A stretch of DNA of 64,000 bases, taken from positions 2,108,001 through 2,172,000 of the forward strand of contig NC_017243.1 in assembly GCF_000223215.1 (NCBI RefSeq), written 5' to 3'. The stretch is from Brachyspira intermedia PWS/A. GTDB taxonomy: Bacteria; Spirochaetota; Brachyspiria; Brachyspirales; Brachyspiraceae. Below, in pieces: positions 29,055 through 43,075 of the stretch (its first letter is position 1; the number at the start of each line of letters is the position of its first letter). Position numbers and translations under genes: made by a program. Below the pieces are notes generated by a model that saw only the letters and a program-made list of their open reading frames with translations, was not told where the DNA came from and ran no database searches.

Positions 29055-29490
29055 TATATACTGAAAATTTTTAACTTTGTCAAATATTCGCCATATGGGC
29101 TTTCCTCACGGTATTGCAAATCATTATGTATAGCCAACTATACGTGCGGCTGATTACTCATTAATATACAAAAGTTAATAATTTATATTACATGTAAAAC
29201 TAAATTAGTATTATTTAGTACTAATTTTTAATTGCACTTTCGCCTGCCGTATGTACACTTCATGATGCGGACTTCGTAAAAGAACCTTATATCCTCGACA
29301 AGCTCGGATACGCTTCGCGAAAAATTGCATTTCTTATCTAAAATTAAGGTATTACACTATATTTGATACATATTATTAAAATATAAAGTTTTAGCAATTG
29401 CGTTTTTTGCTACTTTTTTGTGCGACAAAAAAGTAGATAAAATTTACATAAAGTGCATTAGTTGACAAAGTTAAAAATTTTCAGTATATA
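29055..29490. repeat. Mosaic dispersed repeat A with perfect 29-bp terminal inverted repeats
   Basis: Positions 29055-29083 and 29462-29490 are exact inverted repeats of 29 bases (TATATACTG... / ...CAGTATATA). Between them are blocks shared with the elements at 31463-31762 and 42752-43075: 'TTCGCC-ATATGGGCTTTC', 'CACGGTATTGCA', 'ACGTGCGGCTGATTACT' and 'TACGCTTCGCGAA'. There is no coding frame of note. The layout resembles a MITE or a non-autonomous mobile repeat, though no transposase is nearby. The element lies between the convergent BASS and thiM genes and is richer in G+C than its surroundings. Confidence 0.75.
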
Positions 29491-29760
29491 CCTAAACAAC
29501 TACATTTTGTCAAAAATAAATTTTTTAAATTTAAAATATTTGCAGGGCTTTGCCCCGCACCCCACTTCTTTTGTTGCCACAAAGAAGCAAAAAGGCTATA
29601 TTTTAGCTTAAATTAATAATCTATCTTACATACAAAACAATTTTAGTATTATTTAGTACTAATTTTATATCTTGCACTTTTTGCAACTTTTTGCGGCGGG
29701 AAAAAGTTGACTAAAAAAATGACAAACTTAAAAATTTTCAGTATTTACTAAAATAAATCA
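29491..29760. repeat. Second repeat segment adjoining element A
   Basis: This holds 'TTTGCAGGGCTTTGCCCCGCACCCC', split as AGGGCTTTGCCCCGC and neighbours, the block 'AATTAATAATCTAT-TTACATA' shared with the element at 42.9 kb, and 'TTTAGTATTATTTAGTACTAAT' shared in pieces with A and B. A degraded third copy of the terminal inverted repeat ends it at about 29719-29748. No gene is seen. Confidence 0.6.
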
Positions 29761-29764
29761 TAAA

Positions 29765-29808
29765 AGAAAAAGCAATGGACTTAAATAATATATTCAAGCC
29801 CATTGCTT
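29765..29808 (-). terminator. Terminator of the thiM operon
   Basis: On the minus strand the stem AGCAATGGGCTTGAAT pairs with ATTTAAGTCCATTGCT (two G-U pairs) and is followed by TTTTTCTTTT. It lies 30 bases past the thiM stop. Confidence 0.88.
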
Positions 29809-29837: not shown

Positions 29838-30632
29838 TTATTCCCTTACCCTATTGGCAGCATCATTGATATCAAGTTTATAAAGCTCATCTATAAAAGC
29901 AACAGAAAAACTAGCAGGCCCTTCACATTTCTTTGAAGCTTTTTCACCAGCTGAAGCCATTATGCACATAGCTGAAGAAGCGGCAATCAAAGGCTCGGCA
30001 ACCGCAAGCATAGCACCTGTTATAGCAGTAGATGTACAGCCCATACCGGTATTAACAGGCATTAAAGGAGAACCTCCGCTAACATATAAAACTTTATTAC
30101 CATCTGTTATAATATCAGTTTCACCGCTTATGCTTACAACTGTATTATATTCTTTGGCTAAATGCTTACCTGCCTCAAGTGCCATATTAACATTAGCTGT
30201 GCTGTCTACTCCTTTAGTTTTTATGCTCTCTCCGGCAAGCACCATTATTTCAGAAGCATTTCCTCTAACAACTTTAGGATTATAATTTTTAATCAAATCA
30301 ATAGCTGTTTTAGTTCTCAATTTTGTAGCTCCTGCTCCTACTGGATCAATCACGAAAGGAACATTTTTTTTATTTGCTATTTCGCAAGCCTTATGCATAG
30401 CCTCAATAGAAACAGTAGTTAAAGTTCCAATATTAACAACAAGCGATGAAGCAATAGAAAGCATATCTTCAAACTCCTCTTTCTCGAATGTCATCACAGG
30501 AGAAGCTCCAACTGCAAGCAATGCATTAGCTGTAATTTGCATAACTACAAAATTAGTAATATTATGAACTAATGGAGATTTTGACTTCATATTTGTTATG
30601 GATTGAAATATTTCTTCTTGTAATGTACTCAT
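29838..30632 (-). CDS. thiM: Hydroxyethylthiazole kinase
   Basis: 264 residues, the normal ThiM size. It phosphorylates 4-methyl-5-(2-hydroxyethyl)thiazole, the salvage entry to the thiazole half of thiamine. Family motifs are clear: 'PLVHNITNFVVMQITANALLAVGASPVM' region (20-48), 'VIDPVGAGATKLRT' (~96-109), 'VVRGNASEIM' (~120) and the ribokinase-like active-site loop 'VNTGMGCTSTAITGAM' (~190-205). It ends the minus-strand set that starts with a TPP riboswitch. Neither thiE nor thiD is in the window. AAGGAG precedes the start. Confidence 0.96.
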   Translation of the reverse strand: MSTLQEEIFQSITNMKSKSPLVHNITNFVVMQITANALLAVGASPVMTFEKEEFEDMLSIASSLVVNIGTLTTVSIEAMHKACEIANKKNVPFVIDPVGAGATKLRTKTAIDLIKNYNPKVVRGNASEIMVLAGESIKTKGVDSTANVNMALEAGKHLAKEYNTVVSISGETDIITDGNKVLYVSGGSPLMPVNTGMGCTSTAITGAMLAVAEPLIAASSAMCIMASAGEKASKKCEGPASFSVAFIDELYKLDINDAANRVRE

Positions 30633-30650
30633 TTTATAACTCCTTATAAT

Positions 30651-31442
30651 TTAAATAAAAATCTCAGAAATACAATATAAACATGCCTTTCCGGCTATCT
30701 TTAATTTATTATTTTTAATATCGCAATATAAAACTCCTGTTCTTGGTGAAGCCTGAAATGCAGTAAAATAATCTTTATTCAATTTCTTTGAAAGCAAAGG
30801 TATAATATGACAATGTCCTGATCCGCATACATCAACCTCATCTGCATCCAATTTAGGACCGAAAGTTCTAGTTATGCTGTCATATTGATTATTCTTTTTA
30901 TATTTTACATCAGATGTTATATGAAATAAAAGTCCGTCTAATTTCTTTATAATTTCTAAATTTGGTTTTGCATTTATAACCTGATTTTCATCTTCCAATA
31001 CACATACAATATCGCGTCCTATATAAGCCTCTAAAGGTTTTATTCCTCCTATTGCTTCTATTATATCAGATGTAATTTCTATAGGCTTCAAATCATAATT
31101 AGGAGTATCCATTTCATATAGATCATCTTTTTTTCTAATAGTTAATATACCCTCTTTAGTATTTAAGCTCACCTCATTAGATTCTTTTTCAGCAAAATTT
31201 AATATAGCATAAGCCACAGCAAGTACAGCATGTCCGCAGAAATCTATTTCACATTTCGGAGTAAACCAATACACATCATAATTATTTCCATTCTTTATAG
31301 TGAAAACAGTTTCTGAAATATTATTCTCCATAGCAATATTTTGCATAAGTTTATGAGAAATGTTTTTTTCTAATATGCAAACTGCTGTAGGATTACCTTT
31401 AAAAACCTCATCAGCAAAAGAATCTATAATATAGTATTTCAT
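30651..31442 (-). CDS. PhzF-family isomerase/epimerase-like protein
   Basis: 263 residues with the diaminopimelate-epimerase-like PhzF fold. The start 'DSFADEVFKGNPTAVC' (7-22), the catalytic glutamate E44 in 'NISETVFT', 'CGHAVLAVAYA' (~70) and 'VDVCGSGHCHIIPLL' (~205) match family motifs. PhzF isomerises a phenazine precursor, but most members have no known substrate. The gene sits 18 bases upstream of thiM, so it is co-transcribed and may act on a thiazole or thiamine breakdown product. That link is inference from context only. Confidence 0.85.
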   Translation of the reverse strand: MKYYIIDSFADEVFKGNPTAVCILEKNISHKLMQNIAMENNISETVFTIKNGNNYDVYWFTPKCEIDFCGHAVLAVAYAILNFAEKESNEVSLNTKEGILTIRKKDDLYEMDTPNYDLKPIEITSDIIEAIGGIKPLEAYIGRDIVCVLEDENQVINAKPNLEIIKKLDGLLFHITSDVKYKKNNQYDSITRTFGPKLDADEVDVCGSGHCHIIPLLSKKLNKDYFTAFQASPRTGVLYCDIKNNKLKIAGKACLYCISEIFI

Positions 31443-31462
31443 AATTAATCTCCCACTTATTA

Positions 31463-31762
31463 TATACTAAAAATTTTTAACTTTCTCAAATATTCGCCTA
31501 TACCCATTGGGTACGCTTCGCGTAGGCTTTCCGCACGGTATTGCATACTCTTATCAAATGTCCGCTATACGTGCGGCTGATTACTCATTAATATACAAAA
31601 GTTAATAATTTATATTATATGTAAAACTAAATTAGTATTATTTAGTACTAATTTCATACTTGCACTTTCGCCTGCCGACACCTGCTTCGCAAGATGTACT
31701 TCGTATGGTTCCGCAAGAAAAAGAACAACAAAAAAATTACAAAATATAGTTGTTTAGGTATA
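31463..31762. repeat. Mosaic dispersed repeat B, between the YjiH-type gene and phzF
   Basis: The left end (31463-31491) is the terminal repeat of element A with two changes. Most of 31486-31660 follows element A closely ('AAATATTCGCC', 'GGCTTTCCGCACGGTATTGCA', 'CTATACGTGCGGCTGATTAC', 'TTAATATACAAAAGTTAATA'). An inserted 'TACGCTTCGCGTA' block is unique here. The right end reads TATAGTTGTTTAGGTATATACTA, split at 20 bases, also found at the end of element C. It reaches to about ten bases from the stop of the YjiH-type gene and separates it from phzF. No gene is seen in 31443-31771. Confidence 0.75.
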
Positions 31763-31771
31763 TACTAATTA

Positions 31772-33124
31772 TCAACTAAGAAAGAAATATGCAAAAGGCA
31801 CAGCGAATAACAATGAAAGTATTATTCTCTCAACCCATATTATCATCATATCTCTTATCTTTATAGGTATTCCTACAGCCAATATTACAGGTATAGGAGC
31901 AGCAAAATATAAAATCTCAGCAACGCATACCACAGCAACTACAGACTTAGCAAATTGACTAGCATACATTACAATACTTGAAGAACATGACATTTCAACT
32001 AATGTAACAGAACAAGCCTTTGCAACTATATAAGCCTCATCTCCAAGTCCTAGCAATTTAGTGATAGGTAAAAATATATAGCTTATAACATCAAACAAAG
32101 GAGTATAATTAACTATTAAAAGTCCTATAAATGTTATAGCCATAAAATTAGGCATTACTGAAATAGAAACTATAAGTCCTTCTTTCAAATTCTTAACAAC
32201 ACTATTTAAAACACTATCTGAATGACTGGCAACTTCAGCAGCTTCATTCAATGCCAGCTTAAAAATATTTCCTCCTTTATATATAGGTTCTTCTGCAACT
32301 TCTTTATCCATATATCCGTCGCTAGGTTTATTTCTTAATGGATAAAGTCTTACAGTTATAGCAGTTACTATAAAAGTTATTAACATAGTACCAAAAAAAT
32401 ATATATTCCATTTATCTATAACGCCGAACATCTTAGCAACAACTATCATAAAAGTAGTGGAAACTGTAGAAAATCCTGTAGCTATTATGCAGGCTTCTTT
32501 TTTGGAATAAAAACCTTTTTTATAAACTTTACTTGTCATTAAAAGAGCAATAGAATAACTTCCTACAAATGAAGCTATAGCATCTAAAGATGATCTTCCT
32601 GAAGTTTTCCATATAGGCTTCATTATACATCGCATAAATATACCGGCAAATGACATAAGCCCATAATCTACCAAAAATGATAAGAATATAAAACCTATAC
32701 TATTAATCAATGCTATTTGAGTGAGCAGATTATAAGAAAAAAGAAGCATATTAGGTTTATGAAAATCAGCAGGTCCTAATCCAAAATATGCCATTATAAT
32801 AAATGGTATTGATGTAAGTTTGATAAATGAAAATACTATTTCTGTTTTATTTTTATTCCAAGACTTATTTATAAATGGATATATTCCTCCAAACATAGTT
32901 ATCAATATACCATAGTAAGGATCTACAAAAGGAATTTTTCTTATAAAACTTACTAAATGATCTATAGGTATTGATTTAACATCGCCTATTTTAATTGGTA
33001 TAAATAACATAAATATACCAATAAAACTAAGTATAATAAATTTTAAATAAACTGATTTACTAAATTTAATATTAGCTAAATCATCGCTGCTTAAAACACT
33101 TTCAGAATTTGAAACATTATCCAT
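31772..33124 (-). CDS. YjiH-type nucleoside-recognition (Gate) domain membrane protein under TPP riboswitch
   Basis: 450 residues with roughly ten to eleven hydrophobic helices, matching YjiH-type membrane proteins with two Gate (nucleoside-recognition) regions: 'SSLDAIASFVGSYSIALLMTSKVY' region (~178-201) and 'VEMSCSSSIVMYASQF' (~376-391). 'GFSTVSTTFMIVVAKMFG' (~216-233) is also typical. The family includes uptake proteins of unsettled substrate. Here a TPP riboswitch lies in its leader and thiM follows in the same direction, so transport of thiamine, hydroxyethylthiazole or a related compound is a strong inference. AAGGAAATTTTT precedes the ATG. Confidence 0.82.
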   Translation of the reverse strand: MDNVSNSESVLSSDDLANIKFSKSVYLKFIILSFIGIFMLFIPIKIGDVKSIPIDHLVSFIRKIPFVDPYYGILITMFGGIYPFINKSWNKNKTEIVFSFIKLTSIPFIIMAYFGLGPADFHKPNMLLFSYNLLTQIALINSIGFIFLSFLVDYGLMSFAGIFMRCIMKPIWKTSGRSSLDAIASFVGSYSIALLMTSKVYKKGFYSKKEACIIATGFSTVSTTFMIVVAKMFGVIDKWNIYFFGTMLITFIVTAITVRLYPLRNKPSDGYMDKEVAEEPIYKGGNIFKLALNEAAEVASHSDSVLNSVVKNLKEGLIVSISVMPNFMAITFIGLLIVNYTPLFDVISYIFLPITKLLGLGDEAYIVAKACSVTLVEMSCSSSIVMYASQFAKSVVAVVCVAEILYFAAPIPVILAVGIPIKIRDMMIIWVERIILSLLFAVPFAYFFLS

Positions 33125-33235
33125 AAAAATTTCCTTAAATATAAATTAATATTTTATAGAAACCTTAATGAAAATAATGAGTGTATAAGAATTAAAAAGA
33201 AAATAATTTTAGAAAACTTAATTTAAAATAAAAAT

Positions 33236-33316
33236 ATTTCCCTACACTGGCATTATCCAACAGGTTATAAGGGTCTAAGTTATTAAACTTACTCTCAGCC
33301 TTTTAAGCTCCCCTAA
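33236..33316 (-). promoter_or_regulatory. TPP (THI-element) riboswitch
   Basis: Read on the minus strand the element shows every conserved block in order: GGGGAGCTT, then GGCTGAGAG, a variable stem, GACCCTTATAACCTG, then TTGGATAATGCCAG and TGTAGGGAAA. These match the thi box: CUGAGA, ACCC, AACCUG, the GGAUAAUGCC pyrophosphate-binding part and the closing AGGGAA. It ends about 110 bases before the YjiH-type start. Binding of thiamine pyrophosphate normally turns the downstream genes off. The leader is AT-rich and no terminator stem was pinned down, so control may be at translation. Confidence 0.96.
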
Positions 33317-33389
33317 TTTTTTATATATTATATAACAAAATAAAATTATTTCAATTACTATTAATGATATTTTTTAGATTTTATTATAA

Positions 33390-42751: not shown

Positions 42752-43075
42752 GGTTATTTGTGGGGACTAGTCCCCCGAACACCTACTTCTTTTGCGACCG
42801 TAGGGAGTGCCTGCGACCATAGGAAGTCCTTTAGGGTGGTATTGCCACAAAAAAGCTATATCCTCGATAAACTCGGATACGCTTCGCGAAAGGCTACATT
42901 TGAGCTTAAATTAATAATCTATATTACATATAATATAAATTATTAATTTTGTATAATTATAAGTAATCAGCCGCACATATAGTTGACTATCCATAATGAT
43001 TTGCAATACCGTGCGGAAAGCCCATATGGCGAATATTTGACAAAGTATAGTTGTTTAGGTATATACTACTCATCA
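42752..43075. repeat. Mosaic dispersed repeat C (inverted relative to A and B)
   Basis: The right part (42960-43070), read on the minus strand, repeats element A: 'TTTGTCAAATATTCGCC', 'ATATGGGCTTTCCGCACGG', 'TATTGCAAATCATTATG' and 'GTGCGGCTGATTACT'. The left part has 'GGGGACTAGTCCCC', a perfect palindrome, a 'CTCGGATACGCTTCGCGAA' block shared with A, and 'TTAATAATCTATATTACAT' shared with the segment at 29.6 kb. The element fills the gap between two convergent genes. A short open frame inside it is not a gene. Confidence 0.72.

Follow-up and report, generated by a model that had tools for sequence, protein, structure and literature searches.

The locus examined here lies in a 64 kb stretch of the Brachyspira intermedia PWS/A genome (hereinafter the window) and raises the question of what a membrane protein assigned to the YjiH family could transport when it is encoded immediately behind a TPP riboswitch, in a locus that also encodes the hydroxyethylthiazole kinase ThiM. 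The initial annotation suggested import of either thiamine or 5-(2-hydroxyethyl)-4-methylthiazole (HET). The control by the riboswitch and the role in thiazole salvage hold up in the present analysis, whereas the thiamine option is weakened by the apparent lack of thiamine pyrophosphokinase (TPK).

The riboswitch and the predicted operon

The complete TPP riboswitch reported in the permease leader is readily recovered with the covariance model of RF00059, which matches positions 33222-33324 (minus strand, as are the permease, PhzF-family and thiM genes described below) over its full length (1-105), with a score of 65.6 bits against the gathering threshold of 54.3 (E-value 1.2e-10). This is the only RNA family above threshold in a cmscan search of the entire window. 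The aptamer is full, with the conserved core typical of RF00059 (retained across 19 Brachyspira leaders), and in itself has nothing unusual; the novelty lies in the gene it controls. A putative sigma-70-like promoter, TTGAAA-N16-TATAAT, predicted by consensus match only (11 of 12 positions), precedes the aptamer at 33327-33354 (minus strand), and the leader with the expression platform, including the Shine-Dalgarno sequence AAGGA, occupies 33125-33221. The search for a terminator in this leader yielded no clear candidate, and folding of the whole leader gave no signal (z -0.37); the leaders of five related permeases contain a terminator hairpin of -15 to -16 kcal/mol followed by a U-run. The riboswitch in the window copy probably acts on translation.

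The permease gene (31772-33124) encodes a protein of 450 amino acids that contains a Gate domain (PF07670; 46.6 bits, E-value 5e-12) at residues 137-234 (32423-32716), the region with the highest conservation across hut-type relatives, and has no match in NCBIfam. It is separated by an intergenic stretch (31443-31771) from a gene for a PhzF-family isomerase-like protein (30651-31442; PF02567, E-value 8e-48). This spacer carries a dispersed AT-rich repeat, additional copies of which are located at 29055-29249, 29610-29680 and 42907-43022, and measures only about 30 bp in genomes G004 and G009. Next comes thiM (29838-30632), on the same strand as previously claimed, which passes the equivalog models TIGR00694 (277 bits, cut-off 256) and NF006830. 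Accordingly, the original description of the locus as riboswitch, permease and thiM is correct except that the intervening PhzF gene was overlooked. An intrinsic terminator with an 18-pair stem and a T-run is found 3' of thiM (29770-29808, minus strand); given the promoter before the aptamer and this terminator, the aptamer, the permease gene, the PhzF-like gene and thiM can be read as one unit.

Linkage and the thiamine pathway in Brachyspira

Among 150 related genomes surveyed, 21 carry a homolog of the permease. Besides the window genome, these comprise 15 other Brachyspira genomes with intact copies and one with a fragment; the remaining four belong to a different genus of the Brachyspira family (one genome) and to a second spirochaete family (three genomes). 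RF00059 was sought in 32 of the surveyed genomes, and gene order was read from the fetched stretches. All 16 intact Brachyspira copies are preceded by an RF00059 match, about 90-120 nt upstream, so that chance adjacency of the riboswitch and the permease can be set aside. Downstream of the permease, thiM is present in each of the 15 Brachyspira genomes in which this could be assessed (the contig of the sixteenth ends too early). The PhzF-family gene lies between the permease and thiM in 9 of the 15 thiazole-salvage operons. Its position next to the permease in the window could indicate that the permease moves the compound of the PhzF-like enzyme, or exports something, with the riboswitch mainly serving thiM, but this appears improbable considering that the other 6 operons lack PhzF and nevertheless keep the order riboswitch-permease-thiM.

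Four Brachyspira genomes (G011, G014, G017 and G024) lack the permease, and in these the riboswitch leads directly to thiM. The leader in G014 shares sequence with those of permease-bearing relatives, including a terminator hairpin (-15.6 kcal/mol) with a U-run, which indicates that the permease gene is housed within a thiM riboswitch unit and was either inserted there or lost from it. These four genomes also speak against a HET-importing permease in that HET uptake there would have to proceed via another route or by diffusion.

The window genome encodes ThiE, ThiD and ThiL outside the locus, as found by searches of the genome itself, in addition to ThiM within it, whereas thiC, thiG and TPK were not detected. 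The observation that no thiE, thiD or thiC is nearby is thus accurate, with the first two encoded elsewhere and thiC not detected genome-wide. In the absence of detectable thiC, thiG and TPK, the organism should depend on external thiazole and pyrimidine, and the set of ThiD, ThiE, ThiM and ThiL matches the pattern of dual HMP and HET auxotrophs (PMC6593275). ThiC was detected in none of the 21 Brachyspira genomes, and TPK was not found in 20 of them. The sole TPK carrier, the divergent genome G021, lacks both the permease and a ThiL match above the cut-off; its riboswitch locus (L063, 2508-5662, minus strand) consists of the riboswitch followed by thiM (38% identity), thiE, a HAD hydrolase gene and thiD.

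The window genome contains two TPP riboswitches, the second of which precedes genes for an OppA-like binding protein and TenA, so that no membrane transporter other than the permease adjoins a TPP riboswitch in this genome. Throughout the genus, the second riboswitch controls the OppA-like protein, and in several genomes, including that of the window, genes for TenA and a rhodanese come next. At locus L003 (5389-8506, minus strand; riboswitch G000:C2:822382-822505), the genes are those for an SBP_bac_5 OppA-like lipoprotein, TenA and rhodanese, and a ThiXYZ-type permease is lacking. To our knowledge, an oligopeptide-type binding protein is unusual in a B1 salvage unit. Conceivably, one riboswitch serves the pyrimidine half of B1 and the other one the thiazole half.

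Control by TPP would suit a transporter of any B1 vitamer, and the presence of TenA under the second riboswitch fits a scenario in which the permease imports another B1 compound. This could be thiamine that is split by TenA and rebuilt via ThiM, ThiD, ThiE and ThiL, or else HMP, an aminopyrimidine or a thiazole breakdown product distinct from HET. This possibility deserves consideration but seems rather unlikely. The constant partner of the permease is thiM, not thiD or tenA, and the unit of the SBP5 protein and TenA plausibly covers the pyrimidine side. Thiamine itself is a less likely substrate because TPK went undetected in the window genome and in nearly all other Brachyspira tested, and the same finding, together with the constant association with ThiM, makes HET the most economical choice.

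Relationship to hut-linked permeases

The permease is 98% identical to its counterpart in Brachyspira alvinipulli (the window genome is 3.3 Mb in size), whereas the nearest homologs outside Brachyspira show 46-51% identity. It belongs to the YjiH/COG3314 Gate-domain family as judged by the PF07670 match and by homology, along nearly the whole length, to proteins that databases label 'YjiH family' (e.g., WP_213600200.1, 39% identity over 91%). The label 'YjiH-type' is therefore supported by the database naming of plasmid-borne homologs but not by similarity to the eponymous proteins: in BLASTP searches, neither YjiH nor YjiG of Escherichia coli is meaningfully similar to the permease. The E. 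coli proteins are split Gate proteins that adjoin iadA, have no thi or hut context and share with the Brachyspira permease the family name alone. The only other Gate protein in the window genome is a two-domain ORF of 831 amino acids, probably FeoB, and an ordinary FeoB-type identity of the permease was set aside. A profile search of the PDB with the permease matched no solved structure, and an AlphaFold2 model built from eight Brachyspira sequences (pLDDT 31) was not used.

Outside Brachyspira, the genomic context of the homologs is distinctly different. The homologs from beyond Spirochaetota were drawn from plasmid records, so that TPP-linked members may exist in other phyla; of all homologs sampled outside Brachyspira, including the nearest ones from spirochaetes, none is linked to a TPP riboswitch. 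The expected thi association is confirmed within Brachyspira, whereas nearly every sampled homolog outside the genus lacks it, an outcome that the initial annotation had named as refuting; these homologs lie in or near hut loci or have no clear context. Of the three genomes from the other spirochaete family, two encode urocanase close to the homolog, and the homologs from Pseudochrobactrum, Sinorhizobium and Paracoccus (37-39% identity) are located within hut clusters; the plasmid-borne ones from Vibrio and Aeromonas are outside such clusters. In the HutC regulons of Aeromonas, Psychromonas and Marinomonas, a COG3314 protein is considered a possible histidine importer (PMC5343134). Histidine ammonia-lyase (HutH) is encoded by all four non-Brachyspira spirochaetes that carry the homolog but by none of the 21 Brachyspira, so that, with HutH as the hut gene tested, the Brachyspira permease shows neither hut linkage nor co-occurrence with hut in the genome. 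On a Halobacterium noricense plasmid (L116, 4987-13338), the YjiH-family gene is flanked by tenA and hutUGIH; in Pseudochrobactrum, a TPP riboswitch (L104, 10021-10133, minus strand) precedes an ABC transporter, about 3.8 kb from a YjiH gene that is hut-linked and oppositely oriented; and in one spirochaete genome, a TD-1 RNA (RF03155; L079, 5989-6107) overlaps the start region of a hut-linked homolog.

In the phylogenetic tree, the Brachyspira permeases form a single clade (support 100/100) with a long stem branch and group with hut-linked sequences from spirochaetes and proteobacteria, apart from the archaeal and Vibrio HDW18-type sequences (split 100/100); the branch that joins them to the three sequences of the other spirochaete family is supported at just 87/75. 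Within Brachyspira, the dN/dS values of 0.07-0.21 indicate purifying selection, and the possibility that the gene is a pseudogene was discarded.

The hut-type proteins of COG3314 share homology with the Brachyspira permease along nearly its whole length (37-51% identity) but have hut neighbors where Brachyspira has the TPP riboswitch and thiM. Ten alignment columns with one fixed residue in all other lineages have another fixed residue in Brachyspira. This excess is modest (10 of 109 columns in Brachyspira compared to 2-8 of 72-84 in other lineages), and the stem branch of the clade is long. Eight of the ten map to residues 331-410, and because the two halves of the protein differ only marginally in this respect (Fisher p = 0.046), the clustering is suggestive. 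Two C-terminal motifs of the hut-type relatives are altered: in the window protein, AEMFLPA is replaced by VEMSCSS at residues 376-382 (31979-31999; fixed A376V, P381S and A382S), and FFSAS or FLSAS by YFAAP at residues 406-410 (31895-31909; fixed F406Y, S408A and S410P).

The close homologs in hut loci, the proposed histidine uptake by COG3314 proteins and the nearly unchanged N-terminal Gate domain are all compatible with a permease that still carries histidine or another imidazole but has come under the thiM riboswitch, perhaps to supply histidine for some TPP-linked need. Such a function is, however, highly improbable given that Brachyspira lack HutH and that hut-conserved residues within the 376-410 region are replaced in every Brachyspira copy; furthermore, apart from a Thi5-type HMP route, no rationale is known for repression of histidine uptake by TPP.

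A putative HET importer and its implications

Independent lines of in silico evidence lend good support to both the regulation of the permease by TPP and its assignment to thiazole salvage, and the linkage of the permease to thiM under this regulation in a genome with no detected thiG puts it among candidate HET transporters. From these observations, we infer transport itself, its direction and its substrate, as well as the ancestral substrate of the permease. As far as comparative genomics can tell, the locus is probably a thiazole-salvage unit run by the TPP riboswitch, in which a hut-derived, YjiH-type permease imports HET for ThiM. When TPP is plentiful, the riboswitch would repress this single transcription unit; otherwise, the permease would bring HET into the cell, where phosphorylation by ThiM would trap it. 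ThiE would then join HET-P with HMP-PP made by ThiD, and ThiL would convert the product to TPP.

The permease would derive from a lineage associated with hut and hence with histidine or urocanate, compounds with an imidazole ring, and would have changed its role in Brachyspira. Since nearly all sampled non-Brachyspira homologs lack a thi link and the general role of COG3314 is not thiamine-related, the thi role looks like a lineage-specific recruitment of a hut-type permease rather than a property of the YjiH family. More tentatively, a hut-type imidazole permease could have switched to the thiazole of B1 in Brachyspira, with the change traceable to the motifs at residues 376-410, and founded a family of HET importers distinct from ThiW.

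TPP-controlled vitamer transporters are already known as a kind, within which a HET importer of the YjiH type would be new. HET transporters are an acknowledged gap, with few known. ThiW and ThiU are predicted HET transporters, and ThiW is present in only 64% of the HET auxotrophs in a human gut collection (PMC6593275). The role of these proteins, HET uptake that feeds ThiM in salvage genomes bearing thiM, is like that proposed here, but by annotation they belong to a protein family other than the Gate-domain, YjiH-type one of Brachyspira. A literature search yielded no paper linking YjiH with thiamine in Brachyspira; YjiH and thiamin co-occurred only in a review on gallium resistance, and COG3314 was found in a single paper. 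If the proposed function is correct, the YjiH-type permease would add a family to the HET transporters and explain B1 salvage in Brachyspira, gut bacteria that include intestinal pathogens. The poorly characterized YjiH family would then gain testable azole substrates, imidazole in the hut loci and thiazole in Brachyspira.
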